Assembly: GCF_028882255.1 (NCBI RefSeq)
Contig: NZ_JARBUY010000001.1
Coordinates: forward strand, 1,022,344-1,086,343
Reading direction: 5' to 3'
From: Maribacter polysaccharolyticus
GTDB lineage: Bacteria > Bacteroidota > Bacteroidia > Flavobacteriales > Flavobacteriaceae
Length of the DNA stretch: 64,000 nt
The notes under the pieces: model-generated
Told to the model about the DNA's origin: nothing
The model's input: only the letters and a program-made list of their open reading frames with translations
Database searches by the model: none
Translations under genes and position numbers: made by a program
Shown: positions 25,579 to 49,022 of the stretch, piece after piece
How positions within the stretch are numbered: the stretch's first letter is position 1
Layout of the letters: the number at the start of each line of letters is the position of its first letter

Positions 25579-26145
25579 TTAAATCTCATCCAAGAATTTC
25601 CTGTTTTTAACTAAACTGTTCTTAAAATGCGTCGATGTCATACCGGTAATCTTCTTGAATTGGTTGCTCAAATAAGCAACACTGCTGTAATCCAATTGAT
25701 AGGAGATTTCGCTCAAGCTCATCTCATCATAAACTATCAATTCCTTTACTCGTTCAATCTTTTGGTGGATGATGTATTGTTCAAAGGTGATACTTTCAAT
25801 AGATGAAAACAGGGAACTGGCATACTTATAGTCAAGATGCAATTTGTTGCTGATGTATTCTGCCCAGTTGATATTTATGGGATTGTTTGAGTGGTGCAGT
25901 TTTTCAATGACCAAGCTTTTCATCTGCTCTATTAATTGGCTTTTACGATCATTAATTAATGTAAAACCGATTTTTTCAAGCCTACTTTTTAAATCTTTCT
26001 TGACTTCGCCCATAAGTTCTTCCGTTAAGGTTATTTCACCCAATCTAACGGATTTATAGGGAATCTCCATTTTATCCAAAATTTCTTGGACAGCCATAAT
26101 GCACCGTGGGCAGACCATGTTCTTGAGATGGATAATGTTTTTCAT
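25579..26145 (-). CDS. AraC-family regulator with N-terminal CxxC HMA-like domain
   Basis: A 188-residue protein. Residues 1 to about 62 read like an HMA domain (MVCPRC, Cys12 and Cys15, then a LGEITL strand and a GFTLI end). Residues 95-180 form the AraC DNA-binding domain with two HTH units (MSLSEISYQLDYSSVAYLSNQF is the second-HTH signature). No sugar-binding domain is present. The likely reading is a one-component metal sensor in which Cu(I), Ag(I) or Hg(II) bound at CxxC controls DNA binding. It stands alone between the mer operon and the PepSY/DUF3347 genes. A paralogue is at 48441-49022. Targets are unknown. Confidence 0.82.
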   Translation of the reverse strand: MKNIIHLKNMVCPRCIMAVQEILDKMEIPYKSVRLGEITLTEELMGEVKKDLKSRLEKIGFTLINDRKSQLIEQMKSLVIEKLHHSNNPININWAEYISNKLHLDYKYASSLFSSIESITFEQYIIHQKIERVKELIVYDEMSLSEISYQLDYSSVAYLSNQFKKITGMTSTHFKNSLVKNRKFLDEI

Positions 26146-26177
26146 GATTTTCCTATTTAAGAGGAATTTATTGTTCG

Positions 26178-26327
26178 TTAAGAAAGTGCTTCGAGGATAA
26201 TCAATACAAACGCTACCAAAAATAGAATTAAAATTGAAAGTGCGGCGTATATTCTTTCTTTCTTGGATACCTTATTAATATTACCTTCCCTCTCCTTCTT
26301 CCTTCTATTTCGTCGATTTTGGCTCAT
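26178..26327 (-). CDS. Small basic single-pass membrane protein, 49 aa
   Basis: ATG at 26325-26327, TAA at 26178-26180. The product begins with an Arg/Lys-rich segment (NRRNRRKKERE), followed by one hydrophobic helix (AALSILILFLVAFVLIILEAL). No domain is recognised. A similar small ORF lies on the other side of the PepSY gene at 27116-27247. The composition and context look genuine, but no homologue was checked. Confidence 0.5.
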   Translation of the reverse strand: MSQNRRNRRKKEREGNINKVSKKERIYAALSILILFLVAFVLIILEALS

Positions 26328-26371
26328 TCTTTTGTTTAATTTTAGAGAATAAAATAATTCAATTAACCTCC

Positions 26372-27076
26372 CTAATTCTTTTTATTTATTTTTCTAATTG
26401 TTGGAGAGGATATATACCAAAGCATAAACCCACTCAATACAGTAATTAACCCTAATAGCGAAAACACTCTTAATACTATAGTATTGAAATTGTCCCTTCC
26501 TTGATAGTCCATAGTATGGGTCATCCATAGAAAATCAAACCAACGCCAATTACGATGTCGAAGAGTTTGAAATGAACCATCCGCAATGGATACATAAGAC
26601 TTAATATCTATTTGGGAATCATATGAAATAACATAGACAGGTAGCGGCCTGCCACGATATTCGTGATGATTCCCTACTTCTGCTATCTTCTCAATTCCTT
26701 TCACTTTCAGTTCTGGTAACATATTTTGTCCAGCCACTGCCAAAGCCTCCTTTGCCGACACTTCCTTTTTAATTTCCCCTGTTTTGGCATTTACTAGGTT
26801 TTCTTTGTTTATCCAGTAATAGGGTTTTCCTGCAATATCACGTAGTTCAAGAGAAGTGATTTTCGTATTGTGCTTAAAGATTGTAGGACTTATCAAATTA
26901 TCGAAAAGTGACAATTTAGCTACCGGATTTTTAAATTGGTCTCCGTGTATCTCATCAATATCAGTCCAGCTGAAATACATTCCACTAATGGTCCATATTA
27001 AGAATTGAATTCCTAAAAAAACACCCAAGTATCTATGCATTTTCCTGATTTTCAATGCTGTTTGTCTCTTCACCAT
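26372..27076 (-). CDS. PepSY-domain membrane protein
   Basis: A 234-residue inner-membrane protein: N-terminal helix RYLGVFLGIQFLIWTISGMYFSW (PepSY-associated TM pattern), a periplasmic PepSY region containing the AKTGEIKKEVSAKEAL motif, and a second helix near the end (VFSLLGLITVLSGFMLWYI). It resembles the PepSY_TM proteins that accompany haem/iron or copper genes in Bacteroidota; a role in periplasmic redox or metal handling is likely but not shown. It lies between two small membrane-protein genes. Confidence 0.8.
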   Translation of the reverse strand: MVKRQTALKIRKMHRYLGVFLGIQFLIWTISGMYFSWTDIDEIHGDQFKNPVAKLSLFDNLISPTIFKHNTKITSLELRDIAGKPYYWINKENLVNAKTGEIKKEVSAKEALAVAGQNMLPELKVKGIEKIAEVGNHHEYRGRPLPVYVISYDSQIDIKSYVSIADGSFQTLRHRNWRWFDFLWMTHTMDYQGRDNFNTIVLRVFSLLGLITVLSGFMLWYISSPTIRKINKKN

Positions 27077-27115
27077 ATTTATCTATTTGGAACAGGATTT
27101 CTTACTTTTAAAAAT

Positions 27116-27247
27116 TTAATGGCTTATTACCCGTAAAATAAGCGACCCTATGATTGTTACTATGATACCGATATAAAGTAGACAGCTTAACCAGTATACT
27201 ATTTTCGATTCTTTCTTTTTCCTATATTTTCCTCGACGATTCTTCAC
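27116..27247 (-). CDS. Small basic single-pass membrane protein, 43 aa
   Basis: Stop at 27116-27118. The likely start is GTG 27245-27247, with a possible TTG further upstream. The product has the same design as the ORF at 26178: a basic head (KNRRGKYRKKKESK) and one hydrophobic helix (LLYIGIIVTIIGSLIL). No ATG is available, so confidence is limited. Confidence 0.4.
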   Translation of the reverse strand: MKNRRGKYRKKKESKIVYWLSCLLYIGIIVTIIGSLILRVISH

Positions 27248-27266
27248 ATCTTTCTTCTTAATTGTG

Positions 27267-27325
27267 CCTGTCAAGGGAAGGGTATTAAACACTAACCATT
27301 AACTAAATATTCCCTTCCCAAAACA
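27267..27325. repeat. Copy A of a ~60-bp direct repeat with GGGAAGGG hairpin
   Basis: It contains arms GGGAAGGG (27275-27282) and CCCTTCCC (27312-27319). The same layout (cctg, gggaagg, attaa, ctaacc, ccctccc, aacagg) recurs at 27911-27970 in the same direction. The two copies flank the broken membrane gene at 27453-27825. Confidence 0.5.
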
Positions 27326-27452
27326 GGACTTTAACTTTGATAATATCATCTGGGTAGAAATGGATGACACTAAAAAATCAATTAATAACACTTTCTTACC
27401 CTACCCAGAAATTTATATTTCTATTACTTTTTCTTCATAAACATTTACCTTG

Positions 27453-27825
27453 TCAAAACAATTCGCCACAACTAAATCGTAAATTATAATAATGGTGAAT
27501 TCCCACATCAACCAAAGGAGGTTTTTGAATTTCCTCTGAATAGGCCCAATAACCTATTCTTGTAGAACACATTTCTGTAATTATTGCTAACACCAATCCG
27601 ATACTGAACAAGACCATAGTTTTTTAGATTTAGAATTCGAATCCCGAATATGTTCGTATAAAGCATTCCTAAGGCAAAAAACAGTAGCAATACAATGAGT
27701 AAAACACTACCTATGCTGGGGCATAGAATGAAATATGTTCCCAGTCATATTTAAAACCTGATCGAGAGGGGCCTGGGCAACTTCCCAAATAGAATTTACC
27801 GTAAACGCGGCAATGGCATTATTCA
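27453..27825 (-). pseudogene. Decayed multi-pass membrane protein gene
   Basis: Coding-like segments appear in successive minus-strand frames: AAFTVNSIWEVAQAPL ending in FHSMPQHR and a stop, then a hydrophobic stretch, then a frame with AIITEMCSTRIGYWAYSEEI ending at TGA 27453-27455. The pieces look like a polytopic membrane protein with Trp/Tyr-rich helices, broken by at least one stop and one frameshift. I do not recognise the exact family. It sits between two copies of a 60-bp direct repeat. Confidence 0.5.
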
Positions 27826-27910
27826 ACACCTAAAAATCATTGGCCACAAGGTTCTGTTTTCCACTTTAGCATCTTCCACATTTTCAGTATATTTCTTTTA
27901 CATAGACCTA

Positions 27911-27970
27911 GACCTGAATAGGGAAGGAATTAACTAACCTCTAATGACTCTCCCTCCCCTAACAGGGCTA
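27911..27970. repeat. Copy B of the ~60-bp direct repeat
   Basis: Homologous to 27267-27325 with several small gaps. It also contains outer arms GAATAG (27916-27921) and CTATTC (27968-27973). It lies immediately downstream of the DUF3347 gene, so it may double as a terminator on the minus strand. Confidence 0.45.
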
Positions 27971-27973
27971 TTC

Positions 27974-28501
27974 CTATTCAATTACTTCAGCTACCTTACC
28001 GCAGTTAATCATATTAGCTCCATAATATGGATTCCTAATATCCTCAATCGAGGATAGCCAATGTGCTCCACTTCCAAATGCCATGGGACAAAAATCTTTA
28101 TAGATCTTCCCAGACTTGATATGTCCTCTTATTAATCCTTCCACTGCATTACTTAATTCAGCAAAGGCCTTTCGTTGTACTTTTAAGTCAAAGGAATTGG
28201 CAATTCTTTTTGATGCCGTTAACGCCTCTTCCGAACCCTTGATTTTATCCAGGGCGTCGATTAGCATTATTGCTCCCTTTTGGGCATCTCCCGAATTTGA
28301 ACCCACCAGGTCATTTTTGATATGTTCATAATGTTCGTAAACGGCAGCAAAATTGAGGTCGTTGAACTCTGGTGTCATTTTCATACCGGTCATGTCCATC
28401 TTGCTATGGTCATGATTCATTTTATCTTTTTCCTGCGCATTGGTACAAGCAACTGTGATTAGTAGCATAGCTGTCATATACATGTTTAAATTTATCATCA
28501 T
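27974..28501 (-). CDS. DUF3347-domain exported protein (copy 1)
   Basis: A 175-residue exported protein: hydrophobic signal with a Cys near the end (LLITVACTNAQ), then a His/Met segment (MNHDHSKMDMTGMKM) and a helical DUF3347 domain. The domain ends with the conserved YKDFCPMAFGSGAHWLS and NPYYGANMINCG motifs. The Cys-Pro-Met and Met/Cys residues suggest soft-metal binding, and DUF3347 proteins accompany Cu/Ag systems. Two more separate copies and one CusB-fused copy are in this window. The start could be an internal Met within the first nine codons. Confidence 0.85.
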   Translation of the reverse strand: MMINLNMYMTAMLLITVACTNAQEKDKMNHDHSKMDMTGMKMTPEFNDLNFAAVYEHYEHIKNDLVGSNSGDAQKGAIMLIDALDKIKGSEEALTASKRIANSFDLKVQRKAFAELSNAVEGLIRGHIKSGKIYKDFCPMAFGSGAHWLSSIEDIRNPYYGANMINCGKVAEVIE

Positions 28502-28519
28502 TACTATTTTTAATTTTTG

Positions 28520-28972
28520 TTACAAACTATCTTTCAATTGTGTTATCCATTTTATCACGATTTCTTTGTTTTTTTCTGAAAGTTGGGCATCGCTATGGAT
28601 TAGCGTATAAGATGTGAGCGGCATTTCATCGTCCTCGATTTGGCTGATGATTGATTTCAACTTACTGTTTCTTCTTCTCGATGAATAGTTCCCCCATTCG
28701 TTAAAATTCAATTCTTTCTTACCATCCTCTACGTGGCCCTCCAAAAACCAAGCTACAGGCTGAACTTTGTTGTACCAAGGATAGTTTGTGTTGTTACTAT
28801 GGCAATCATAACAAGAGGTTATTAAACTATTCTCGACTGGTTTAGGTACGTTATTCACAATCATAAAATCTGTTGTGGGCACTATGTCGCTCTGATTACG
28901 AGTGGTAGACACAAACTGGATACCCACCAACACTATCAGTAAAACCCATCCTATAACCTTTGCAATCTTCAT
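28520..28972 (-). CDS. Haem-binding-domain membrane-anchored cytochrome
   Basis: A 150-residue protein with an N-terminal membrane helix (residues 4-22) and a single c-type haem motif CYDCH (54-58) followed by NTNYPWYNKVQPVAWF, the signature of the Bacteroidota haem-binding domain. A later MPLTSYTLIH segment may supply the distal Met. It faces the periplasm. It is encoded 1 bp upstream of the next DUF3347 gene's end, so they form one operon. A redox role in metal oxidation is possible. Confidence 0.87.
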   Translation of the reverse strand: MKIAKVIGWVLLIVLVGIQFVSTTRNQSDIVPTTDFMIVNNVPKPVENSLITSCYDCHSNNTNYPWYNKVQPVAWFLEGHVEDGKKELNFNEWGNYSSRRRNSKLKSIISQIEDDEMPLTSYTLIHSDAQLSEKNKEIVIKWITQLKDSL

Positions 28973-29632
28973 CTAATTGATCTGCTTTTGAACACTACCA
29001 CAAGTCACCATTTTACTTCCGTAGTAAGGATTCTTTATTTCTTTAGTAGCACTTAACCACTGGGCTCCCTTTTTATCATTGAACATTGGGCAAAAATCTT
29101 GATACAAGGTTTTTTTCGTTCCTGTAATGCTAATAAGGTCTATGACATCCTTGCTTAGGACATCAAAGTGTTCCCGTTGATGGTCAAGATGGCTTTTGGC
29201 GATATGCTCGGCATGTTCCGTTGCGTCTTCGATGATGTCGGTTAACTCTCCCTGCTGTTCTTTATCGAATTTGCTTTTATCAAAATTTTCAAGGGAACCC
29301 ACCAATTTTTCACCAACTTTCGCCGCAGCTTCTTTATTATCGGCCACGAGCGCATTCTTTAGCTCCAGATAATCCCCGACAATTTGGGAAGACCTCATGG
29401 CATTTTTGTTCATGTCCATCATCTTATCGGATAATCCCATTTTATCGTGATCCATTGTTGAGTGGTCTTGAACACCATCGTCCAAGTGCCCATTTTCTTC
29501 CATTTGTTCGGTATGGTGCGCATCTTCGTTATTATTTTCTTTTTTGGTGTCCTTACACGATGTTGCCATTAAGGCAACTACTGCCATTGCCAATATTCCT
29601 GTTGGTATCTTTAATTTGCTCATTTTCTTCAA
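28973..29632 (-). CDS. DUF3347-domain lipoprotein (copy 2)
   Basis: A 219-residue lipoprotein (lipobox MATSC, Cys26) with a long His/Met/Asp linker (HHTEQMEENGH, then DHSTMDHDKM), a helical bundle with a HAEHIAKSHLDHQREHFD stretch, and the DUF3347 end (YQDFCPM, then NPYYGSKMVTCG). It is longer than copy 1 because of the linker. Likely a periplasmic Cu/Ag-binding protein. It forms an operon with the haem-binding and copy 1 genes downstream. Confidence 0.85.
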   Translation of the reverse strand: MKKMSKLKIPTGILAMAVVALMATSCKDTKKENNNEDAHHTEQMEENGHLDDGVQDHSTMDHDKMGLSDKMMDMNKNAMRSSQIVGDYLELKNALVADNKEAAAKVGEKLVGSLENFDKSKFDKEQQGELTDIIEDATEHAEHIAKSHLDHQREHFDVLSKDVIDLISITGTKKTLYQDFCPMFNDKKGAQWLSATKEIKNPYYGSKMVTCGSVQKQIN

Positions 29633-29693
29633 TTTATGGATTAATCAATGTCAATAATTCCTAATCGTTTTCCATTTAGTAAAAATCTTTAAC

Positions 29694-30080: not shown

Positions 30081-30084
30081 AGTC

Positions 30085-30276: not shown

Positions 30277-30288
30277 AATTAATATGTT

Positions 30289-31587: not shown

Positions 31588-31589
31588 AT

Positions 31590-35463: not shown

Positions 35464-36003
35464 TTACATAGCATGAAACGTTTCTTTTACACTACCGCAG
35501 CTTGCCATGGCTTTATCCATATAAGGATTTACAATTTTACTTGAATTGGAAAACCAATACGAGCCACCATCCTTAGCCATTGGACAAAACGTTTTATATA
35601 TTTCACCTTCAACAATATTACCCTTCAGTAAAGGTTCGAATGCTGTTGTAAGTGATGAAAACATAATACGCTGATCCTTGATGTTGGAGGTTGATGCCAT
35701 TTCTGCCGCTACTTTTTCCGCTTCCCCAGCTTTAACATATTTCTCTAAGATCGCAACAAGCATTTTAGAGCTTTCTTTTGCTTTTTCTGAGTTGGCTTCA
35801 ACCAAGGCTTTGTTGATCATTGTATAATGCATATAGGCTTTGGTAAGGTTTTTATCGTTTAACTTTACCATTTTGTCGTTATAATCCATCATTGCATGAT
35901 CGTCCTGTTGCTTATTCATCTTGCTGTGATCGTGTTGTGCATGTGTGAAACTCGATACGCTAACCATAAAAGCGATCATTACTACTGATTTTAAATTTTT
36001 CAT
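35464..36003 (-). CDS. DUF3347-domain exported protein (copy 3)
   Basis: A 179-residue exported protein: signal peptide (VMIAFMVSVSSFTHA), a short His/Met linker (HDHSKMNKQQDDHAMMDY) and one DUF3347 domain ending YKTFCPMAKDGGSYWFS and NPYMDKAMASCG. It is encoded 26 bp after the CusB gene, whose own C-terminus is a DUF3347 domain. Probably a soluble periplasmic Cu/Ag chaperone for the pump. Confidence 0.85.
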   Translation of the reverse strand: MKNLKSVVMIAFMVSVSSFTHAQHDHSKMNKQQDDHAMMDYNDKMVKLNDKNLTKAYMHYTMINKALVEANSEKAKESSKMLVAILEKYVKAGEAEKVAAEMASTSNIKDQRIMFSSLTTAFEPLLKGNIVEGEIYKTFCPMAKDGGSYWFSNSSKIVNPYMDKAMASCGSVKETFHAM

Positions 36004-36029: not shown

Positions 36030-37880
36030 TTATTTTATAATTACTGCTTTTGTGTCACCACAGGTTAGCATTTTAGCCCCTAAATAAGGATTTTTAATAG
36101 CTTCATCAAGGCTTAACCAATAGGCGCCATTGTTGTTGTCGGCCATAGGGCAAAATTGTTCATACACTTTTTGATTAACCCCAAATAGCTTTACTCCTTT
36201 TGATAAATGCGCTGATAAATGCTTGAAATGGCTGCGTTGTTCTACTATATCCGAAATTTCTGAAATGGAATTTGCCGATCCCAAAATTTCTTTTGAAATT
36301 GTCATCCAGTGGTTATGTGCTTTATGGTCGGTCAATTGCTTCATGTCCACCTTTTTCATGGCACTCAACAATGTTTTAGCCAATGTACTGGCAGCACCGC
36401 TATCATCACTTACAAAAGCATCTTTTAATTCAATGTAAGCGTTGAATACCTGTTCTAATTGACCTTTAAACGTATCTGTTGTTGTGATTCGCTGGTTCAT
36501 ATCAGTATGATCTGTTTCAGCTTCCATTGTAGTATTGCTCATATCCATTTGAGAATGATCGACACCATCTTCGCTCTCACCTTTATCCATTTTCATTCCA
36601 CCATGGTTATGACCAGTATTTACCTTGCCTCCCTCAGGGTTCATCATGCTTCTTTGGCCCAATAATTGAGCAGAAGCATCTATTCTGAACACACCATTTG
36701 TGGCAACAATTTCACCTTCTTCCAAGCCGTCAGCAACACTATAAAACTGGCCCATATCCTGCCCCAGCTCTATTTCCCTATATACGAACGAAATGGTTTT
36801 GTCGTGTGGTACTTTTACGTAAACCACAGCACGTTTTCCGGTCCAAAGTACTGCCGATTTTGGTATGACAATGGCATTCTCCATATCTTTCATTTTTGCG
36901 CGAATGATACCGCTTGCATACATTTCAGGCAGGAGCTTGTTCCCAGGATTATTTACCTCAACACGTACTTTGGCAACTCGTGTGCTAGGTGATACAAAAG
37001 GATCAACGTAGGTTACTCTACCTTCAAAGGTTTTGCCTGGGATGGCCTGTATAGTAAAACTTACCTTATCATTAATGTTTATCCACGGTATATCGGCTTC
37101 ATAGGCTTCGAACATGACCCAAACAGTGCTTAAGTTTGCTATATCAAATAAATTTCCACCTGCCATGACATAATCGCCAACCTCGACATTGCGCTTCATA
37201 ACATAGCCCGAATGATCGGACAAAATATCAATTTGCTCCTGTACATTTCCGGTCGCTTCAATGGCATCAATTTGCTTATCGGATAGCTTCCATAATTTTA
37301 ATTTATTACGTGATGCCTTATAAAGCTGTGGGTATATATCTTTAGATTTAATCGCTTCAAACAATTCTTTTTGTGCGGAAATTAATTCCGGTGAATAAAT
37401 ACGCACAATTTTTTGACCAGCATATACTTTTTCACCCGTAAAATTCAAGTATAATCGTTCTATACGACCAGGAATGTGGGAAACTTGAGAATACAACCGA
37501 CGTTCATCAGGTTTTACCCTGCCCAGTAATCGTATTTCTTTACTAGCACTAGCTTTTTCAACTATTGTGGTTTGTATATTTGCCAACTGATACGCCTCTT
37601 CGTTCATAACGATTTCGTTGGCTGCAATGTTTTCTGAAGAACTGTCCTCTTCTACCAATGGAATGAGTTCCATCCCACAAATTGGGCAATTTCCAGGTTC
37701 TTCCAATTTAATTTGTGGGTGCATGGAACAGGTCCATAAACCTGTTTCTTTGTCTTGAACATATTCATGTTCACCATCTGCATGTGTTGGTTCTGAACTT
37801 CCCCCGGAAAACACGTTTCCTAAAATAATTCCGATAATTAAAATACCGGCTGCTATGATATAATTTTTATATTTTTTCAT
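36030..37880 (-). CDS. cusB: CusB-type adaptor with metal-binding and DUF3347 domains
   Basis: A 616-residue periplasmic adaptor of a Cu/Ag RND pump. After one membrane anchor (residues 7-22) comes the heavy-metal-binding domain WTCSMHPQI (Cys51) with NCPICGMEL (Cys65, Cys68), the Bacteroidota equivalent of CusB's metal-capture N-terminus. The adaptor body follows (barrel-sandwich, hairpin, beta-barrel), then a His/Met linker (NHGGMKMDKGESEDGVDHSQMDMS), and finally a full DUF3347 domain (about 470-616) ending YEQFCPMADN and MLTCG. The C-terminal fusion adds about 150 residues. It forms an operon with TolC and pump genes upstream. Confidence 0.92.
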   Translation of the reverse strand: MKKYKNYIIAAGILIIGIILGNVFSGGSSEPTHADGEHEYVQDKETGLWTCSMHPQIKLEEPGNCPICGMELIPLVEEDSSSENIAANEIVMNEEAYQLANIQTTIVEKASASKEIRLLGRVKPDERRLYSQVSHIPGRIERLYLNFTGEKVYAGQKIVRIYSPELISAQKELFEAIKSKDIYPQLYKASRNKLKLWKLSDKQIDAIEATGNVQEQIDILSDHSGYVMKRNVEVGDYVMAGGNLFDIANLSTVWVMFEAYEADIPWININDKVSFTIQAIPGKTFEGRVTYVDPFVSPSTRVAKVRVEVNNPGNKLLPEMYASGIIRAKMKDMENAIVIPKSAVLWTGKRAVVYVKVPHDKTISFVYREIELGQDMGQFYSVADGLEEGEIVATNGVFRIDASAQLLGQRSMMNPEGGKVNTGHNHGGMKMDKGESEDGVDHSQMDMSNTTMEAETDHTDMNQRITTTDTFKGQLEQVFNAYIELKDAFVSDDSGAASTLAKTLLSAMKKVDMKQLTDHKAHNHWMTISKEILGSANSISEISDIVEQRSHFKHLSAHLSKGVKLFGVNQKVYEQFCPMADNNNGAYWLSLDEAIKNPYLGAKMLTCGDTKAVIIK

Positions 37881-37887
37881 ATTTTTT

Positions 37888-39135
37888 TTATTTTCCTATT
37901 AAATAATCCATAAATGCTACTGCTGCATTTTTATCAGTTAAAGCCTTTTGATATTCCAATTCGTATTTGAGCATTTGTCGTTCTATACGCAATACTTCTT
38001 CAAAATCTTTAGCGTTTGTAGAGTATGATGTAATCAATATGTCCAATACTTTTTTGGCTATTTCAGACTGCCGTTTGTTTAATGCAATTCGACGATCGCC
38101 ATCGTTAAAATCTTTATTTATATTTTCATAAACTGAACTTAAGGTATTCTTTTTATCCACTTTTCTGGAAATTTCGGCTTCTTGCAAATATTGTGCTTCC
38201 TTGATCAAGGCTTTATATTTTTTACGATATAAGGGAATTGTAACACCCACAGATGGAAACATAAACGCATCTTTACCGTTTTCTGCAACCGAAGAACCTG
38301 CGTTCTCACCAACAACGGTATAACCAAGACCAATATTGAATTTTGGCAAACCTTGTTTTTTTGCGACAACTTCTTGGTTTACAAATGCATTGAGTTTATG
38401 CTCTATACTTTTTATTTGATGGTTTGATGCATAAATCTCATCGAGCATTTTTAATTGATCCAAAGGAATATCTTCCTGCCACAATACTTCCGGAATTACA
38501 ATTTCGGAAGTATCATCTATATCCAGCAGGTTATTGAAGTTTACTTGTAAGGCATCCTTGGTGTCCAAAAACAGAGCTAATTGATTTTCCAGGTCGTTCA
38601 GCTCCAATTCTACACGCAGCTCGTCAACAATAGAGGCTGTTCCAGCCTCAATCTTGACCAATGATAAGCGCTTAAAGACTTCTAGGATTTCAATATTCTC
38701 TTTTGTTATTTCAATAGCCTTTTCAATAAAATAATAGTTATAATAGGCAGTTTTTACTTCAAAGAAAATATTTGATTTTGTGTTTTCAAAGTCTTCATAT
38801 TTAGCTTTTGCCATTTCGGTGGCAACATCTTCCTGTGCACTCAAGAGTCCGAACCACGGAAAGCTTTGTGCTAAATTAAAAGTTGCCCTTTGCGGACCAA
38901 CCCTTGTTTCCGGCGATTGGATAAAATATCCAAAGGCAACAGTTGGATCCGGTAAAGCACCCACTTGAGGCACTTTTTCCATAGCAGCCATATAATCGTT
39001 GAATTTTGCTTTTAGTGCAGGATTATTATTGGCTGCGATTTCCAGATAGTTATTCAGATTTTCTTGACTAAAGCTGCTTATAGTAAGCATCAAAACTAGA
39101 CTCAAGAAAAGGTATTTATTAGTTTTAGTTTTCAT
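37888..39135 (-). CDS. cusC: TolC-family outer-membrane factor (CusC-type)
   Basis: The outer-membrane channel of the Cu/Ag export system. A signal peptide (LFLSLVLMLTISSFS) precedes about 390 residues of helical TolC repeats. A short VPQVGALPDPTVAFGYF segment and an ERQMLKYELEYQKAL heptad-rich tunnel helix are typical of CusC/CzcC homologues in this phylum. It is encoded between the pump (10 bp) and the adaptor (7 bp), tightly packed. Confidence 0.9.
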   Translation of the reverse strand: MKTKTNKYLFLSLVLMLTISSFSQENLNNYLEIAANNNPALKAKFNDYMAAMEKVPQVGALPDPTVAFGYFIQSPETRVGPQRATFNLAQSFPWFGLLSAQEDVATEMAKAKYEDFENTKSNIFFEVKTAYYNYYFIEKAIEITKENIEILEVFKRLSLVKIEAGTASIVDELRVELELNDLENQLALFLDTKDALQVNFNNLLDIDDTSEIVIPEVLWQEDIPLDQLKMLDEIYASNHQIKSIEHKLNAFVNQEVVAKKQGLPKFNIGLGYTVVGENAGSSVAENGKDAFMFPSVGVTIPLYRKKYKALIKEAQYLQEAEISRKVDKKNTLSSVYENINKDFNDGDRRIALNKRQSEIAKKVLDILITSYSTNAKDFEEVLRIERQMLKYELEYQKALTDKNAAVAFMDYLIGK

Positions 39136-39145
39136 CTTTCAAAAT

Positions 39146-42100
39146 TTAAGCATTGCTTTGTTTTAATTGTTTTTTTAGCCCCTTTTCTTTCCACATACTG
39201 TACAGTACAGGCACCACAAACATGGTCATTACCTGTAACAGCATACCACCAAATGTAGGTATCGCCATTGGTATGACTACATCAGCACCTTTACCAGTTG
39301 CTGTTAGAACCGGGATTAGAGCAATTATAGCTGTTGCAGCAGTCATCATTGCTGGACGAACTCTTTTGGAACCTGCAATTAAAACTGAGGATCGAATACC
39401 TTCAATTGTAGTCGGTTTTTTTTCATCAAACACCTGAGTTAAATAGGTCCCCATAATAACCCCATCGTCGGTAGCAATACCAAATAAAGCTATAAACCCG
39501 ACCCAAACGGCAACACTTAAATTAATTGTATGCAGTTGAAACAAGTCTCGCATATGAACTCCGAAAACTTCAAAGTTTAAGAACCAACCTTGTCCATACA
39601 ACCAAATCATAAGAAAACCACCAGAAAATGCCACGAAAATTCCCGAGAATATCATTAATGAAGGAATCAACGATTTGAATTGGAAATACAAAATCAGCAG
39701 AATTAGAATCAATGAAATTGGTACAACAATCATTAAACGCTTTGAAGCCCGGATCTGATTTTCATAATTTCCTGTAAAACGATAGGTTACACCATCGGGC
39801 AAAGAAAATTCACCACTCTCCATTTTTTGCTCGATAAGGGCTTGTGCATCTTCAACCACATTGGTTTCGGCATAGCCTTCTTTCATATCAAAAATCACAT
39901 ATCCCGTTAAAAAGGTATCCTCACTTTTAATCACCTGTGGGCCCCTAACATATTCAATTGAAGCCAACTCACCCAGTTCTACTTGAACCCCTGCCGGGGT
40001 TGGAATCAATATCTTTTTAATATCGTCCGGATTGTCCCTAAACTCCCTAGCATATCGCACACGTACGGGGAATCGTTCCCTACCTTCAACCGTTGTGGTC
40101 AATTGTTTTCCCCCTATGGCTACCGATAGCTGCATTTGCATATCTTTAATGGTCAATCCGTAGCGCGACATGGCTTGTCGATTCAAATTTATCTCCAAGT
40201 ACGGTTTCCCTACCACTCTGTCAGCAAACACTGTTGGCGGATTAACACTTGGAACTTCTTTCAAAATATTTTCCAGTTCAAACCCAACTTTCTCAATTAC
40301 TTCCAAAGTCGGGCCAAACACTTTAATACCCATTGGAGCGCGCATGCCTGTTGCCAACATAATCAAACGGGTTTGAATGGGCTGCAGTTTTGGAGCGGAC
40401 GTTAATCCAGGGAATTTGGCATGTTTGACAATTTCATTCCATATATCGTCTGGCTTTTTTATATGTTCACGCCATTGCCTGAAATTTTCCCCATCATCAT
40501 CCGGTATGAGTTCTTCTCTGGATATTTTTCGAAACTCGTCCGTACCATATTTATAGGTTGTACCATCTTTTAATACAAAAGCATCATGCTCATTTACTTT
40601 AAACCGTACCCTGTGCCCATCTTCATCCAAAATATACTCTGGCACATAATTAATGGTATTTTCATACATAGAGGTTGGTGCAGGGTCTAATGCAGAATTT
40701 ACACGCCCCCATTTCCCAACTGATGATTCAATTTCAGGAATGGTCATCACATGCCTATCGACACTGGCGATAACTTCCATGTTTTCAGAAATTCCAGAGT
40801 GCGGCATAGTGGTAGGCATTAACAAGAACGAGCCTTCATTTAAGGCAGGCATAAATTCTTTACCAATTCCCGGAAATGATTTTTCTATACTCGCCCAAGC
40901 CTTTGTGTCTTTTACAAAATCTGGCATAAAGCCAAACACATTGCCAATACCCATCCAAATAGTAACACCAAAAACAACTAAAAAAATTGGTATAGTTAAA
41001 AACTTCCATTTGTTATTCAAACACCAAACTAAAATTCTTTTATAGAAATGTACTATAGTCATTAAAAAGCCTAAAACAAGACCAATTACAACTATAACAA
41101 ATATAAAGTTGACAAAAGTTGAATTTGAAACCCCTAACGGCATCCATTCAATGGTTAAAAAATAAACCAATATTATTATGGTTATGGCTATGTTTATGTA
41201 ATTTCCTAATTTTTCAGAATATGGTAATTTTAATTTCCCGTTGAAGAAACTTTGCTCTTTTACTTGTGTCAATAAATTATTAACACCAAACGCTATTAAT
41301 GAAATAGCTATAAGGCTTCCATATTTTATTAAAAAAACAATCCCGAAACCAATTAAAATACCATTGAATATTCTACTAGTTCTTTTTTTGTCAATTCTAA
41401 TTGAAAACAAAACCTTTGCCAAGGCAGGGATAAACATAATTCCAATAAAAAGTGCAGATATTAATGCAAATGTTTTCGTCCATGCTAATGGTCTGAATAA
41501 TTTTCCTTCAGAAGCCTGCATCGCAAAAACAGGAAGAAAACTTACGACTGTCGTAGCAAGGGCCGTAATAACTGCCGATGCTACCTCTACCGTTGCTACA
41601 TATATAACCTGTATCAACTCTTTACCCTTAACTCCTTTGTTTTCTGGCATTTCCAAATGCCTAACTATGTTCTCGGTAAAAACGATACCGACATCGACCA
41701 TTACCCCTATAGCAATAGCAATTCCGGAAAGAGCAACAATATTGGCATCTACACCAAAATACTTCATTAATATAAAGGTCATCAACACCCCTATTGGTAA
41801 TAAAGTAGAAATTAATACCGAGGCTCTTAAATTTAACACGAGTATGATAACTACCAGAATACTAATCAATATTTCATGTGAAAGTGCAGATTCTAAGGTT
41901 CCCAATGTTTCCTGAATTAAACCAGAGCGATCATAGAACGGTACAATTGTTACTTTTGAAACGGTACCGTCTTCAAGTGTTTTTGATGGCAGTCCAGGTG
42001 CCACTTCCTTAATTTTAGCTTTAAGATTTTGAATTACTTCCTGCGGGTTGGCACCATAACGTGCCACGGCAACACCTCCTACAGCTTCCACACCACTTTT

Positions 42101-42985
42101 ATCCAGACCTCCTCTACGAGTGGCAGGCCCGAATTGTATTTTAGCAACGTCCTTTAAACGTATTGGGACATTATCCCGAACCGTAACCACACTTTCCTCA
42201 AGATCACTTAAATTTTTAATATACCCCAAACCTCTTACCAGATATTCAGCTCTGTTAAACTCTAATGTACGTGCGCCAATGTCGAGATTACTGTTTTTTA
42301 CAGCGTTCATTATTAATTTAACGTCCACATTGTTGGCCTTCATTGCATCAGGATCTATCTCGATCTGATACTCTTTTAGGAAGCCTCCAATGGAAGCAAC
42401 TTCTGCAACACCACTTGCAGCCGTTAAATAATAACGTACATAAAAATCCTGTATGGTTCTTAATTCGTGTGGATCCCAACCTCCTGTTGGTTTGCCGGTT
42501 TTAGCGTCTCTACCTTCTAAGGTATACCAATACACTTGCCCTAAAGCTGTTGCATCCGGCCCAAGTGCTGGAGTAACTTCATTAGGTACAGTGCCTGGTG
42601 GTAGGGAATTTAATTTCTCAAGGATTCGGGTTCTACTCCAGTAAAAATCGACATCGTCTTCAAAAATGATATAAATGCTGGAAAGCCCAAAAATGGAATT
42701 ACTTCTAATGGTCTTTACACTGGGTATCCCAAGTAATGCCGTGGTCAATGGGTAGGTGATTTGATCTTCAATATCTTGGGGCGATTGTCCCATCCATTCG
42801 GTAAAGACAATTTGTTGATTTTCACCAATATCCGGTATGGCATCAACTGGCACAGGGTTTCGTTCTATCAATGAGGTTTCCCAGTTAAATGGGGCTGTTA
42901 TAATTCCTCCAACAATAAAGGCAAGGAGCAACATAAATGTTATCAACTTATTTTCAAGAAAATAACGGATTGTTTTATTTAGCAT
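39146..42985 (-). CDS. cusA: CusA-type RND pump with an inserted membrane segment
   Basis: A 1279-residue inner-membrane pump, probably for Cu(I)/Ag(I) given its adaptor and neighbours. It has the CusA-like TM1 end, the RSNSIFGLSSIYIIFED motif of the porter domain, and TM4 AIGVMVDVGIVFTENIV. The chain is about 230 residues longer than a standard CusA. Much of the excess lies after TM6, where several added hydrophobic helices (IFNGILIGFGIVFLI, ITIIILVYFLTIEWM, FVNFIFVIVVIGLVLGFL) precede the second half. Such long forms occur in Flavobacteriia. It is first in the operon, and a terminator separates it from the upstream HYC/CC/PP gene. Confidence 0.92.
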   Translation of the reverse strand: MLNKTIRYFLENKLITFMLLLAFIVGGIITAPFNWETSLIERNPVPVDAIPDIGENQQIVFTEWMGQSPQDIEDQITYPLTTALLGIPSVKTIRSNSIFGLSSIYIIFEDDVDFYWSRTRILEKLNSLPPGTVPNEVTPALGPDATALGQVYWYTLEGRDAKTGKPTGGWDPHELRTIQDFYVRYYLTAASGVAEVASIGGFLKEYQIEIDPDAMKANNVDVKLIMNAVKNSNLDIGARTLEFNRAEYLVRGLGYIKNLSDLEESVVTVRDNVPIRLKDVAKIQFGPATRRGGLDKSGVEAVGGVAVARYGANPQEVIQNLKAKIKEVAPGLPSKTLEDGTVSKVTIVPFYDRSGLIQETLGTLESALSHEILISILVVIILVLNLRASVLISTLLPIGVLMTFILMKYFGVDANIVALSGIAIAIGVMVDVGIVFTENIVRHLEMPENKGVKGKELIQVIYVATVEVASAVITALATTVVSFLPVFAMQASEGKLFRPLAWTKTFALISALFIGIMFIPALAKVLFSIRIDKKRTSRIFNGILIGFGIVFLIKYGSLIAISLIAFGVNNLLTQVKEQSFFNGKLKLPYSEKLGNYINIAITIIILVYFLTIEWMPLGVSNSTFVNFIFVIVVIGLVLGFLMTIVHFYKRILVWCLNNKWKFLTIPIFLVVFGVTIWMGIGNVFGFMPDFVKDTKAWASIEKSFPGIGKEFMPALNEGSFLLMPTTMPHSGISENMEVIASVDRHVMTIPEIESSVGKWGRVNSALDPAPTSMYENTINYVPEYILDEDGHRVRFKVNEHDAFVLKDGTTYKYGTDEFRKISREELIPDDDGENFRQWREHIKKPDDIWNEIVKHAKFPGLTSAPKLQPIQTRLIMLATGMRAPMGIKVFGPTLEVIEKVGFELENILKEVPSVNPPTVFADRVVGKPYLEINLNRQAMSRYGLTIKDMQMQLSVAIGGKQLTTTVEGRERFPVRVRYAREFRDNPDDIKKILIPTPAGVQVELGELASIEYVRGPQVIKSEDTFLTGYVIFDMKEGYAETNVVEDAQALIEQKMESGEFSLPDGVTYRFTGNYENQIRASKRLMIVVPISLILILLILYFQFKSLIPSLMIFSGIFVAFSGGFLMIWLYGQGWFLNFEVFGVHMRDLFQLHTINLSVAVWVGFIALFGIATDDGVIMGTYLTQVFDEKKPTTIEGIRSSVLIAGSKRVRPAMMTAATAIIALIPVLTATGKGADVVIPMAIPTFGGMLLQVMTMFVVPVLYSMWKEKGLKKQLKQSNA

Positions 42986-43062: not shown

Positions 43063-43085
43063 TTATGAATTCAATTATTTAATAA

Positions 43086-43502
43086 TCAAATGAGGAAAGT
43101 CTGATCAAGGACTTGCACGTCCCTAACCAGTAGAGGTGAAGAATAATCCTTAAAAGGAACGATATTTGAATCGAGTCCCTCATAAAGATTTATGTAAGAA
43201 TAAATAAAGGAAACAACAAAAAGTTGTTGTTCCATATTAAATTTTTCAAAGGAAATTTTCAGGTCGTCTTGACCATTAATGGATAAAGTTTCATTGCTAC
43301 AGCAATTTTTCTGAGTAAGATCACATTCACCGGAATCGGAAGATTGCTGTACATCCATACCACAAGAATCTGCTTTACCATACAGTGATGAATCTACTAA
43401 AATATCACCACAATAATGATTTTCAATCGTAAAAGAGAACGTTGAAAGAAGCACAATAAGTGCCATTAAAAAAGATGATATTTTGGTAAAAAACTTCTTC
43501 AT
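43086..43502 (-). CDS. HYC/CC/PP-family small exported protein upstream of cusA
   Basis: 138 residues from ATG 43502 (a longer frame starts at a non-ATG codon upstream). The signal peptide (KISSFLMALIVLLSTFSFT) is followed by the diagnostic NHYCGD, then an acidic Cys-containing stretch with CSN preceded by NCC, and an end in LDQTFLI. The usual PP is SPLL here. These small Cys-rich proteins are conserved beside metal genes in Flavobacteriia and have no assigned function. It sits upstream of the cusA operon and has its own promoter element and terminator. A relative on the plus strand is at 47843. Confidence 0.8.
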   Translation of the reverse strand: MKKFFTKISSFLMALIVLLSTFSFTIENHYCGDILVDSSLYGKADSCGMDVQQSSDSGECDLTQKNCCSNETLSINGQDDLKISFEKFNMEQQLFVVSFIYSYINLYEGLDSNIVPFKDYSSPLLVRDVQVLDQTFLI

Positions 43503-43510
43503 TAGATATG

Positions 43511-43518
43511 CAAAGTTA
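43511..43518 (-). promoter_or_regulatory. -7 promoter element of the HYC/CC/PP gene
   Basis: TAACTTTG on the minus strand (consensus TAnnTTTG) ends eight bases before the ATG at 43502. The nearest TTG is 14 bp upstream, shorter than ideal. Confidence 0.5.
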
Positions 43519-43535
43519 TAAAAAATTTGATACAA

Positions 43536-43958
43536 GAAGTTCCTTTAACATTATTTTAGGGTCAAATGAAATGGTATACAATCGAATTGTCTTCCTGGAT
43601 TTACTTGATGACCTGAATATTTTCCACTAGATTTTAGATGCCTTTCTGTGGGTTTTCATAGTCGAACCCTGTTGATTCGTAAACTTGCATTTTCAAAAGG
43701 ATTTCAAGTTTAGTGTGAGTTGCCTATTTGACAATCGTTTCTTAGATGGAGCTTACAAATAGGGCATTCCTTTCAGGTCGAAACTATTTATTAAACTAAT
43801 TTGAAGCAGGTGCTTGTACAATTTTAAAAGGAATTTTTTAAGTGACTGGATTTATGACAAAGGGTCGCATTAATTTAGAATTAAAATAATTCTGCTGATA
43901 AAAACAAGAAAATTTTAAGAAAGATTTTAAATAATTTTTTTTGTTTAAAAAGTATATT
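43536..43958. other. Divergent intergenic region, no gene seen
   Basis: This separates the minus-strand Cu/Ag block from the plus-strand TonB receptor. I see no gene, repeat or hairpin of note beyond the promoter elements at its edges. Confidence 0.4.
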
Positions 43959-43966
43959 TAGGTTTG
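43959..43966 (+). promoter_or_regulatory. -7 promoter element of the TonB-dependent receptor gene
   Basis: TAGGTTTG matches TAnnTTTG. A TTTG lies 15 bp upstream, closer than the usual 17-23 bp. Transcription would begin about 28 bp before the ATG at 44000. Confidence 0.45.
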
Positions 43967-43999
43967 TACTTATTTTTATTAAATCTAAATAAATATAAA

Positions 44000-46234: not shown

Positions 46235-46333
46235 GATTAGAAGAATACTCCAAGGCATTGATAGAATTTAGACTTAAACGTTAAAAGTAATCAAATTGGA
46301 AAATTTCTTAATAATTAAAAAACTACGTAACCT

Positions 46334-47098
46334 ATGCAATCAATCAAGTATCGCACATACCTTTCGTTTGGTATCTTTCTAGTATCATATTTTTTGCCAA
46401 ACGCAGTAGTGGCACAACAAGAAATTGTAACGATGGCCATCGAGGTTTCTGGGACCGCGAAATTGAAAAATGCAGAAGCCTCCTTTACCTTTCGCGATAA
46501 CAGCTATAAATACAAAAGAAACAAAGGACGATTTGAATACACAAGAATCGGCAAGAAGATAGATGGCACCAAAATACGGGATGTCTATACCAACGAAGGG
46601 CTCTTCCGTTATGTGGATGACACCATGGTTGCACTTACCGAGAAAAGAAAGAAGGCCTTTACAAATTCTGTCAATTCGGTAATTTATTTTGCATTTCTTC
46701 CTTTATGGCTCAAAGACCCTGCGGTGATACTTGAAAATAAGGGAATATCGAAAATCAAAGGCAAGGAGTACCATAAAATACGCGTCACTTTCAAGCAAGA
46801 GAGTGGTGGCGATGATTTTGAGGATGTATTTTTATACTGGTTTGATGTTCATGATTACCGCATGGATTACCTTGCATATAAATATTTTACCGACAAAGGC
46901 GGAATACGGTTCCGTGAAGCTTATAACCAACGTACAGTTAACGGCGTTACTATACAGGACTATCGTAACCTACAACCCAAAATCAAAGGAAGTATTGATT
47001 TTGAACATATTGATAAAGCCTTTGAAAATGATAAATTGGAAGAACTGTCCATTATTGGATTAAAAAAAGTAAAAATAGCATCCATTCCAAAAACTTAA
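46334..47098 (+). CDS. DUF6503-family exported protein
   Basis: A 254-residue protein with a signal peptide (ending VVAQQ) and a beta-rich domain (ASFTFRDNSYKYKRNKGRFEYTRIG, then GKEYHKIRVTFKQESGG and VFLYWFDVHDYRMDYLAYKY). This layout is a Bacteroidota-specific family (DUF6503) with a lipoprotein-carrier-like fold. It lacks a lipobox Cys. It follows the TonB receptor at 99 bp in the same direction and may assist it. Function unknown. Confidence 0.72.
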   Translation: MQSIKYRTYLSFGIFLVSYFLPNAVVAQQEIVTMAIEVSGTAKLKNAEASFTFRDNSYKYKRNKGRFEYTRIGKKIDGTKIRDVYTNEGLFRYVDDTMVALTEKRKKAFTNSVNSVIYFAFLPLWLKDPAVILENKGISKIKGKEYHKIRVTFKQESGGDDFEDVFLYWFDVHDYRMDYLAYKYFTDKGGIRFREAYNQRTVNGVTIQDYRNLQPKIKGSIDFEHIDKAFENDKLEELSIIGLKKVKIASIPKT

Positions 47099-47104
47099 CC
47101 TTTA

Positions 47105-47129
47105 TTTCTTAAAAAAGAAACAGTTTTTT
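47105..47129 (+). terminator. Weak terminator after the DUF6503 gene
   Basis: TTTCTT and AAGAAA (6-bp arms) are followed by CAG and TTTTTT. The stem is all A-T, so strength is doubtful. Confidence 0.35.
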
Positions 47130-47151
47130 GGACTCAACACCATGATGTTAT

Positions 47152-47580
47152 TCATTCAAAAACTCGAAGTATGTTTCCAGTAAGTTCTGTTTGAAATATT
47201 TTCAAGGGATTGCTTGTGATGCTGTTTAACGGTTTTCCTGTCTGGTCAAACCGTGCACCGTGCGTAGAACAGTAATAGATGCCCCCATCATTCGAAATAA
47301 ATCACACTTCCTCGGTCTGTTGATGGCTACAGATTTGGCTCGCCGCTACATACTGCCCCTCCAAGTTTTTTGCCACGACCACAAATTCCTTTAAAATAAA
47401 TCCCCCATTATTCTGTAATGGCACACCTTCCTGAGAGTCAAGGTAAATGGTAAAATCAATTCCGGTAGAGACAGCAAGGCCCGTTTCTGCACTGTCTTCA
47501 GAACAACCATGAACGCAGGGAAAAACTATGGCAAATGCCGCACCAGCACCCAAACTCCGCAAAAACTGTTTTCTTTCCAT
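47152..47580 (-). pseudogene. Rieske-type [2Fe-2S] protein gene with in-frame stop
   Basis: Start at ATG 47580. An export signal (RKQFLRSLGAGAAFAIVF) precedes a Rieske domain. The first cluster motif CSHQ is intact; nine codons after its Cys, TGA at 47302-47304 interrupts the frame. The same frame then continues through the second motif CSTHGARFD and ends at TGA 47152-47154. All four cluster ligands (Cys-His, Cys-His) are therefore encoded, split by one stop. It may be a recent pseudogene or a sequencing error; recoding is unlikely. The intact protein would be about 142 residues and periplasmic. Confidence 0.8.
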
Positions 47581-47690
47581 AACAAAAACGATTTTAAAAA
47601 AGAACATTTCAATTTCTAAAATCGTATTGCTACTTACCAATAATTTCCTAAGAAAAGCTCATTGTTAATTCTGTGTGAAAATTTTTATGA

Positions 47691-47736
47691 ACATGACAAA
47701 TATCATGTCAAGGCCTTGTTAGCTATCCTATTTTTG
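47691..47736 (+). promoter_or_regulatory. Inverted repeat and -7 element before the second HYC/CC/PP gene
   Basis: ACATGA-6-TCATGT (47691-47708) lies about 20 bp upstream of TATTTTTG (47729-47736, consensus TAnnTTTG). A repeat covering the -33 region is where a repressor or activator would bind. The gene start at 47843 leaves a leader of about 100 bases. Confidence 0.45.
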
Positions 47737-47842
47737 TAGTTGAATGCCAAAAAATACATAACTATATAACTATATATCAGATAATTATAAACCGGGAATA
47801 ACTAATATTCAGAGTTAAATAATTTTTAACTAACTTTATAAT

Positions 47843-48262
47843 GTGAAAAAGTTTTTTACCAAAATACTATCTATCAGTTTGACTTGCGCCGTGCTCTTCA
47901 CATCGACGGCGTTCACGGCAGATATGCATTTCTGTTGTAATAAATTGGTAGATGTAGCCGTATTTGGTAAAGCAAAACCCTGCAAAGATAAAATTCAGAA
48001 AGCAGAAAAATATTCAAAAAAATGTTCCTTCGACCAAAAAGATTGTTGTAGTAATAAGAGTTTTGTGAAGCAGGGAAATGACAACTTAAAGAAGGTTACT
48101 TTTGAACTGGGTGCAGAAAATTATGTTTTCTTACAAGCTTTTTTATACACCTATGTGAACCTTTTTGATGGGTTCGAAAATAAATTAGTTGCCTTTGTAA
48201 ACTATAATCCACCTTGGATTGAGAAGGACATTCTTGTGCTTCACGAAACTTTCTTGATTTGA
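47843..48262 (+). CDS. HYC/CC/PP-family small exported protein (second copy)
   Basis: 139 residues with a GTG start (47843); an ATG one base off is followed by a stop. The signal peptide (KILSISLTCAVLFTSTAFTA) is followed by MHFCCNKLVD, a Lys-rich Cys region (CKDK, CSFDQKDCCSN) and FVNYNPPWIEKD, with LHETFLI at the end. Here the HYC motif reads HFC and the PP pair is intact, making this the more complete of the two copies. A Lys-rich Cys cluster could bind soft metals. It is followed by two hairpins and then the second AraC-type gene. Confidence 0.8.
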   Translation: MKKFFTKILSISLTCAVLFTSTAFTADMHFCCNKLVDVAVFGKAKPCKDKIQKAEKYSKKCSFDQKDCCSNKSFVKQGNDNLKKVTFELGAENYVFLQAFLYTYVNLFDGFENKLVAFVNYNPPWIEKDILVLHETFLI

Positions 48263-48274
48263 TTTTTATTTAAG

Positions 48275-48332
48275 CAGATTATTGATTTAATAATCTGTAC
48301 TTCCCCTTTAGCCAGTAATTGATTATTGGCTA
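48275..48332 (+). terminator. Two successive hairpins after the HYC/CC/PP gene
   Basis: Hairpin 1: CAGATTATT / AATAATCTG (48275-48297, 5-base loop). Hairpin 2: 11-bp arms TAGCCAGTAAT / ATTATTGGCTA (48309-48332) with one mismatch. Neither is followed by a clear U-tract, so an attenuator between this gene and the AraC-type gene is also possible. Confidence 0.4.
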
Positions 48333-48440
48333 CCTCTTGTCGTACTCGTATTCTAACGACAGCCTATTCCGACCCCTATTAAAAAAAGGGATTTAACCTC
48401 TGTTCGGCTTTAATGCCAGGGAAAATCAACATATATACTC

Positions 48441-49022
48441 ATGGAATCCATTCGGAAATACTGGATTAAAAACATGGTTTGCAGACGGTGTCTGAAGGTC
48501 ATAAAACAGGAACTTGTAGCTATCAACGTCGAAGTACTCTCCCTAGAATTGGGAAAATTAACAATACGTACTACTCCTATTAATGTTAGGCAAATCGATA
48601 TTCAAATAGCAAATATTCTTTACTCAAATGGCTTTGAAATCGCCAAAAGTGAAGAAGAAATGTTGATTGAAGAAATAAAGATATCACTAATAGAACTTAT
48701 AAAAGATTTGCCTATATCCATAAAGGTGAATACCTCCGAGTACTTGGCCTCGACCTTACATCGTGAATATAAAATATTGAGCAAATTGTTTTCCAAAACT
48801 GAGAAAACAACTATTGAAAAGTATTTTATAAAACTGAAAATCGAAAAGGCAAAAGAGCTAATGCAATTGCAACGATATACTTTCTCGGATATTGCTTATC
48901 TCTTGGATTATAGTAGCGTGAACCATTTATCAAGGCAGTTTAAGAATATTAGCGGAATGAGTATGACAGATTATAAAAAAACAGAAGATTGGAAGCGTAA
49001 TTTCTATGACGAAATTATATAG
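48441..49022 (+). CDS. AraC-family regulator with CxxC HMA-like domain (second copy)
   Basis: A 193-residue paralogue of the protein at 25579. The N-terminal part carries MVCRRC (Cys14, Cys17) in an HMA-like context, and the C-terminal part holds the AraC DNA-binding domain (FSDIAYLLDYSSVNHLSRQFKNISGM). No third domain is present. Here the CxxC has Arg-Arg between the cysteines, against Pro-Arg in the other copy. It lies 71 bp before the cytochrome-porin group and likely regulates this part of the island (inference). Metal identity unknown. Confidence 0.82.
   Translation: MESIRKYWIKNMVCRRCLKVIKQELVAINVEVLSLELGKLTIRTTPINVRQIDIQIANILYSNGFEIAKSEEEMLIEEIKISLIELIKDLPISIKVNTSEYLASTLHREYKILSKLFSKTEKTTIEKYFIKLKIEKAKELMQLQRYTFSDIAYLLDYSSVNHLSRQFKNISGMSMTDYKKTEDWKRNFYDEII

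Follow-up and report, generated by a model that had tools for sequence, protein, structure and literature searches.

An HMA-like domain joined to an AraC-type DNA-binding domain in two predicted copper-responsive regulators of Maribacter polysaccharolyticus

What do two small AraC-family proteins, encoded among the efflux and mer genes of Maribacter polysaccharolyticus, sense, and which genes do they control? The question is raised by a 64,000-nucleotide stretch of contig NZ_JARBUY010000001.1 (positions 1,022,344 to 1,086,343 of the forward strand; here called the window, in whose own positions all coordinates are given). A sequence-only reading of this DNA had described both proteins as an HMA-like (heavy-metal-associated) N-terminal domain fused to an AraC DNA-binding domain, and had proposed that they are one-component soft-metal sensors. 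Regulator A has 188 amino acids (25579-26145, minus strand) and regulator B 193 (48441-49022, plus strand), and the two are 37% identical. From their predicted fold, their relatives, the neighbouring genes and a promoter element shared by many of these loci, we conclude that A and B probably belong to a family of one-component Cu(I)-responsive transcriptional activators that is found in Bacteroidota.

Fold and spread of the HMA-AraC proteins

Both open reading frames contain an AraC/XylS-type helix-turn-helix (HTH) in the C-terminal half, detected with the Pfam model HTH_18 (A, 47.9 bits, E-value 1.7e-12, residues 99-176, positions 25618-25851; B, 44.4 bits, E-value 2.1e-11; cut-off 33.6). The Pfam HMA model (PF00403) did not match A or B at E<=1, and neither did the CsoR (PF02583) and CueR (TIGR02044) models in the Pfam and NCBIfam scans. 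Because Pfam detects the AraC-type HTH alone in these proteins, the HMA identity of the N-terminus needed a separate test. An AlphaFold2 (AF2) model of full-length A made with 64 family members had a mean predicted local distance difference test score (pLDDT) of 89.9, and the N-terminal domain modelled alone scored 88.8. The predicted elements (strand 3-8, helix 13-25, strands 30-34 and 37-40, helix 46-58 and strand 62-64) follow the beta-alpha-beta-beta-alpha-beta topology of HMA domains. Cys12 stands just ahead of helix 13-25, and Cys15 lies within its first turn. The structure prediction that the sequence-only reading had named as a check thus returned the HMA topology and no unrelated fold. 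Its statement that nothing lies between the two domains is nearly right; a single linker helix (residues 67-84) joins the HMA-like domain (residues 1-66, positions 25948-26145) to the AraC helices.

Comparison of the N-terminal domain of A with the PDB by Foldseek placed HMA-type copper chaperones and ATPase metal-binding domains at the first 13 ranks, some of which we take to be of this type from their names. The best E-value was 0.0076, none of these PDB matches reached E<=0.001, and UreE followed at rank 14. With full-length A, AraC-family proteins came first, and the HMA-type matches were CopZ (2qif, rank 42), CsoZ (6ff1, rank 43), ATP7B domains (ranks 44 and 45), GolB (rank 47) and CopA (rank 49), with the unrelated SidD among them at ranks 46 and 48. 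Profile comparison gave a clearer result: hhalign aligned the family N-domain (62 rows) with 40 HMA domains, taken from the copA neighbours and the window, with a probability of 93.7% and an E-value of 1.9e-7, and 15 column-shuffled controls reached at most 2.5%. The Pfam HMA model at E<=0.1 matches 12 of 64 family members (best 1.2e-4) and misses the other 52, and the unrelated model DUF2120 matches 10 of the 64 (best 0.0022). Altogether, the structural model shows an HMA-like fold at the N-terminus of A, and the homology of B to A suggests the same fold for B.

Relatives were collected by a genome scan that returned at least 585 of them among at least 599 pattern matches, of which the 80 scoring best against copy A were kept. 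By title, 79 of these loci belong to Bacteroidota. The remaining one (L062) comes from a metagenome-assembled genome labelled Thalassovita (Pseudomonadota), groups with Flavobacteriaceae in the tree and is probably a mis-binned contig. When 62 of the 80 were aligned with A and B, N9, M10, V11, C12, R14 and C15 were invariant in 64 of 64 proteins, a biased sample because the 62 rows came from a scan using KNMVC[NDP]RC as one of its two patterns. Among 31 proteins collected by whole-protein similarity, without the motif pattern, 27 carry MVCxRC. The C-P-R-C of A (within NMVCPRC; Cys12 and Cys15, positions 26101-26112) is therefore a candidate metal site, as is, from its sequence, the C-R-R-C of B (within NMVCRRC; Cys14 and Cys17, positions 48480-48491). 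A family match was found in 142 of 296 Bacteroidota genomes (E-value limit 1e-20). The DNA pattern for NMVCxRC was present in 133 of the 296, including 131 of the 142, and its backward control in 4. Among plasmid records, 32 matched at E<=1e-8, half of them from Hymenobacter, and a cyanobacterial one matched the HTH part alone. None of the 83 pattern matches in the viral_contigs set was confirmed as a family relative, and phage carriage is unsupported there. HMA-AraC is thus a large family, widespread in Bacteroidota, which includes paralogue clades without CxxC (see below).

Linkage to copA and a predicted direct-repeat operator

A copA-type ATPase with the CPC motif lies directly downstream of the regulator gene, on the same strand, in 45 of the 80 loci (open reading frames of at least 70 amino acids), a rate that is not unbiased because the 80 are the best-scoring matches to copy A. 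A 46th downstream match, in L061, is a 71-amino-acid HMA open reading frame. A repeated motif was first noticed by reading the gaps between the HMA-AraC and copA genes. From 45 of these 46 gaps (L061 was excluded by the length filter) we built a matrix of 33 columns, seeded with TTACAA/TTATAA in 31 of the 45 regions. The column autocorrelation of this matrix peaks at 0.76 at exactly 21 bp, against 0.41 for the best inverted arrangement. In a 5-fold hold-out, 42 of the 45 regions scored at least 13 bits. In 38 of the 45 regions, moreover, the site is followed at a distance of exactly 24 nt by TTTG, which fits the -7 box of Bacteroidota promoters; promoter position had no role in training. Proteins of the AraC/XylS family typically bind direct repeats near the promoter, and we regard the conserved 21-bp repeat as a predicted operator.

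In 1.86 Mb of loci, among them those used for training, 96 matches reached at least 13 bits; the reversed sequence gave 6. There were 33 of the matches in loci not used for training. Fifteen, with 10 different site sequences among them, stand ahead of copA, 2 precede a Csp1-like copper-storage gene (L051, where TIGR04401 is below and PF03860 over its cut-off, and L059, whose product is 92% identical to it), and 3 precede SO_0444-type Cu/Zn efflux genes (L073 and L093, over the NF033936 cut-off, and L098, 70% identical to L093). Within the training loci the site also stands ahead of CopZ-like genes (L064, L068 and L074, identified by family match, and L086, recognised by eye), and the matrix marks DoxX-like and DUF3347 genes, among others (L095, L112). 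Together with the linkage to copA, this genome evidence strongly suggests a copper role for the HMA-AraC family.

We then asked how the site is distributed among genomes with and without the family. Of 38 family-lacking genomes searched, 25 had a copA-like match; 30 of the 31 loci were read, and the 28 with CPC were kept. Of 40 family-bearing genomes, 35 had a match, and the best locus of 30 genomes was read, all with CPC. A site of at least 10 bits was absent from all 28 copA-type promoters of the family-lacking set and present in 12 of the 30 of the family-bearing set (Fisher p 1.3e-4, kinship ignored). With one family-bearing locus set aside for its 97% identity to a locus of the training set, 11 of 29 remained (p 3.0e-4), and mono-shuffled promoters gave 0 sites in 1200. 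A same-genus pair follows this distribution: G134 has the family and a site of 32.4 bits, and G168 has neither.

These data bear on the possibility that the repeat at copA is bound by another regulator, the HMA-AraC gene being only a neighbour. In G062 (C1:3030845-3031216) and G067 (C1:2852895-2853266), both without HMA-AraC, a CueR-like gene (129-130 bits, below the model's cut-off) does precede a copA-type gene by approximately 0.5 kb, and other sensors therefore serve copA elsewhere. The site is absent, however, from the 28 promoters of family-lacking genomes, its direct repeat at 21 bp fits binding by a dimer of the AraC type, unlike the inverted operators of CueR and CopY, and related repeats occur after B-type genes and near paralogues without CxxC. 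We consider binding by another regulator highly improbable, and the HMA-AraC protein itself the probable ligand of the repeat.

Predicted targets in the window

The matrix, which had no window sequence in its training, gave a single strong match in the 64-kb window: two half-sites 21 bp apart at 13014-13046 on the minus strand (22.1 bits), with TTTG 24 nt downstream. The next best match scored 8.3 bits, and the largest of 40 shuffles 16.9. This predicted operator lies 52 nt before the start of a copA-type P1B ATPase gene (10703-12961, minus strand) and 12.5 kb from copy A. The pattern of the window site, with 3 mismatches allowed, a search that does not cover more diverged sites, occurs once in the 4.76-Mb genome, and its backward control does not occur. 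The ATPase, identified by TIGR01511, Pfam and motifs, has an N-terminal HMA domain (CASC) and the CPC motif. Copper is the best of the metal-specificity models (TIGR01511, 614.5 bits, cut-off 397), and the cadmium model TIGR01512 is also over its cut-off (386.8, cut-off 313.5). The copA gene is thus the predicted target of the regulators in the window, and the soft metal of the sequence-only reading is best taken to be copper, as copA linkage and the predicted site suggest.

That reading had assigned A to the mer genes. A mer role belongs to a different explanation of the same architecture, in which the proteins respond to a different soft metal (Hg(II), Ag(I) or Au(I)) or to a broad range of them, and A acts on mer, its tie to copper sensors being one of common descent only. 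The order of genes gives it some support, since arsR-merTP-merA follow A both here and in several close relatives, and the CxxC HMA domains of mer proteins handle mercury. The mer genes (a MerTP fusion, a small HMA protein and MerA by family matches; 22417-25104, minus strand) are however preceded by an ArsR/SmtB-family gene (25101-25475, minus strand; NF033788 over cut-off), situated between A and mer, which is the likelier mer regulator. No operator-like site was found in the gap between A and arsR/mer, the only strong match of the window being the one ahead of copA, and copA is the next gene in the 45 loci described above. We therefore rejected A as mainly a mer regulator, and consider a non-copper signal unlikely; a Cu(I)-responsive family, with copA as the predicted target in trans, is the reading we prefer.

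The second assignment, of B to the cytochrome part, is weakly supported. A 21-bp direct repeat, AATTATATAG-N11-AATTATACAG (49013-49043, plus strand), precedes the cytochrome c-like gene downstream of B (49094-49498, plus strand; Pfam) and spans the stop codon of B. We count this possible B operator as weak because its first half falls within coding sequence, and because we picked out the half-site by eye in the very sequences examined. In B-type relatives the best repeat pair is at 21-bp spacing in 21 of 22 (L170 gave 20). B lies inside the cus cluster in 9 of 22, with an outer-membrane factor before it and a multicopper oxidase or copA after it. In 10 of 22 it comes after a HYC_CC_PP gene, beside and divergent from the cus cluster, and the genes downstream encode a protein judged by eye to be Met-rich and a small HMA protein. 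The order in the other 3 of 22 is HYC_CC_PP-like gene, B, copA. The cytochrome gene is a possible target of B.

The Cus-type efflux genes of the window (36030-42985, minus strand; family matches) encode a CusB-like protein with DUF3347, an outer-membrane factor and a CusA/CzcA permease. No copA-type site was found upstream of this operon (43536-43795), where the best score was -8.8 bits, and at most 2.8 bits in 22 relatives; other repeats are present there. The CusB-like adaptor (36030-37880) combines HMBD with a C-terminal DUF3347, and three more DUF3347 proteins are encoded nearby (27974-28501, 28973-29632 and 35464-36003). Two HYC_CC_PP-family proteins (43086-43535 and 47843-48262) flank a TonB-receptor region; many relatives have one ahead of CusA and another ahead of B. 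At 17285-21697, one open reading frame of 1470 amino acids unites a resistance-nodulation-division permease (ACR_tran) with the domain of an outer-membrane efflux protein (OEP). Finally, in eight other Flavobacteriaceae genomes (G023, G373, G378, G398, G404, G431, G437 and G442) a single contig carries both a B-type regulator and, approximately 18-26 kb away, an A-like partner, which suggests that the region containing A and B is a conserved, perhaps mobile, metal-resistance island.

Paralogues, proposed mechanism and place among known regulators

Several observations weigh against a Cu(I)-responsive family. The exact NMVCxRC is missing from 11 of the 142 family-bearing genomes. The rate of copA linkage is biased, and the lineage of A mostly has arsR-merTP-merA or other genes next, with copA elsewhere (some kilobases further on in several loci). 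Thirteen of the 33 non-training matches are not ahead of copA, Csp1-like or SO_0444 genes; a DUF4396 gene and HMA-AraC paralogues with their neighbours account for part of these, and a few are likely due to chance. Some sites lie in loci of paralogues without CxxC, and the sites are therefore not exclusive to Cys-bearing proteins. The comparison of genomes having and lacking the family is confounded by phylogeny, and 18 of the 30 promoters in family-bearing genomes have no site of at least 10 bits. In 99 sampled Bacteroidota genomes the CueR model nowhere reached its cut-off (147.4 bits), though weaker MerR-type matches occur in 64 of them, some CueR-like (up to 135 bits), and CsoR-type proteins in 32, 5 of which also have HMA-AraC. 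A mutual exclusion of CsoR and HMA-AraC (the latter in 5 of 32 genomes with CsoR versus 46 of 67 without, p 1e-6) was considered and not used as evidence because one family drives it; p was 0.18 without that family and 0.30 at one genome per genus.

The relatives without CxxC were placed in an unrooted tree of 72 rows (30 of the 80 best loci, 40 further loci, A and B). It contains 54 CxxC rows, 7 SxxC rows (YMVSLRC) and 11 further rows, each group on one side of a well-supported branch. In the clade of the 11 further rows (L178-L188, 8 kb in), which also lacks CxxC, 10 of the 11 genes are followed by one for a 146-149-amino-acid protein, and some also by sensor kinases. The neighbour in L178 is a receiver domain by Pfam, followed by a PAS histidine kinase, and those of the other neighbours whose sequence was read resemble it. 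In this clade the HMA-like domain may have been rewired to phosphorelay signalling. Near some members of the YMVSLRC clade (L189-L195, 8 kb in), in which the first Cys is replaced by Ser, sigma-factor-like, YtxH-like, holin-like or cupin-like genes were seen by eye. That 18 related rows lack CxxC, with receiver and kinase genes beside some of them, would fit an HMA-like domain that is a dimerisation or docking module, its cysteines a thiol or redox switch and the copper linkage a result of copper-caused thiol stress. The retention of MVCxRC in the 27 of 31 relatives gathered without the motif argues against this, as do the identified genes behind the site, which are mostly copper-handling, and we regard such a switch as very unlikely.

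For a Cu(I)-responsive HMA-AraC protein we propose the following mechanism. The N-terminal domain would take Cu(I) on CxRC, probably from the cytosolic chaperone pool, and this would favour the DNA-binding, activating state of a dimer. The AraC-type domains of the dimer would bind AATCTTAYAA-N11-AATNYTRYAA directly ahead of the promoters of genes for copper export and storage, and there recruit RNA polymerase. The second half-site adjoins the promoter on its upstream side, a position that would suit an activator in contact with the polymerase. In the window, the target with a clear site would be copA (10703-12961), controlled in trans, and B may also act on the genes directly downstream of itself. 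Chaperone HMA domains can pair around copper, and by analogy a copper-bridged HMA pair would be an attractive switch. The metal, its binding, dimerisation, activation rather than repression and the binding of A or B to the copA site are what we infer from sequence.

The proposed sensor resembles several known systems. It shares with the HMA superfamily (CopZ/Atx1, the N-domains of CopA and ATP7A/B, MerP) the fold, a CxxC at the start of helix 1 and a Met two residues before the first Cys. The usual HMA motif is GMTCxxC, seen also in the HMA domains of the copA neighbours, whereas the family of A and B has NMVCxRC, has diverged beyond Pfam HMA in 52 of 64 members and is fused to a DNA-binding domain. 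With AraC/XylS activators it shares the C-terminal HTH and a predicted direct-repeat site with two-helical-turn spacing adjoining the promoter; unlike them, it has an HMA-like domain as sensor, no sugar cupin, PAS or receiver, and only 188-193 amino acids. CueR, CsoR and CopY resemble it in its predicted role, the control of copA and CopZ-like genes in response to cytosolic Cu(I), but their folds are unrelated to HMA-AraC and their operators inverted. Ada also joins an N-terminal cysteine-metal domain to an AraC-type HTH; its cysteines accept methyl groups, with structural zinc, a different fold and a different role. HMA-AraC is, as far as its sequence allows us to predict, a new domain architecture of a one-component metalloregulator. 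In agreement with the sequence-only reading, which knew of no characterised example, a search of the open-access literature by title and start of abstract, with subscription papers and preprints outside its scope, found no description of such a regulator. In the available part of PMC10710014, AraC is mentioned in unrelated contexts only.

A wider combination of these ideas is possible, though we hold it tentatively and think it rather doubtful as a whole: HMA-AraC would be a main sensor of cytosolic Cu(I) in much of Bacteroidota and a new structural family of metalloregulators, a Cu(I)-bridged HMA pair would bring two AraC domains onto the 21-bp direct repeat, and the paralogues without CxxC would have been turned to two-component signalling and to other loci. 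How Bacteroidota sense copper in the cytosol appears to be an open question. In the part available to us, a 2024 article on the copper genes of Bizionia argentinensis, one of the Flavobacteriaceae, reports MerR-like and CopY-like proteins that lack a conserved copper site and proposes two ArsR-type candidates instead, and the term AraC is absent from that text (PMC11213822). The HMA-AraC family, its predicted operator, the list of targets and the relatives without CxxC, which are natural controls for a copper role, make this question directly testable. If the copper role is true, these proteins would be one-component sensors made from a metallochaperone fold, and a simple part for copper biosensors.

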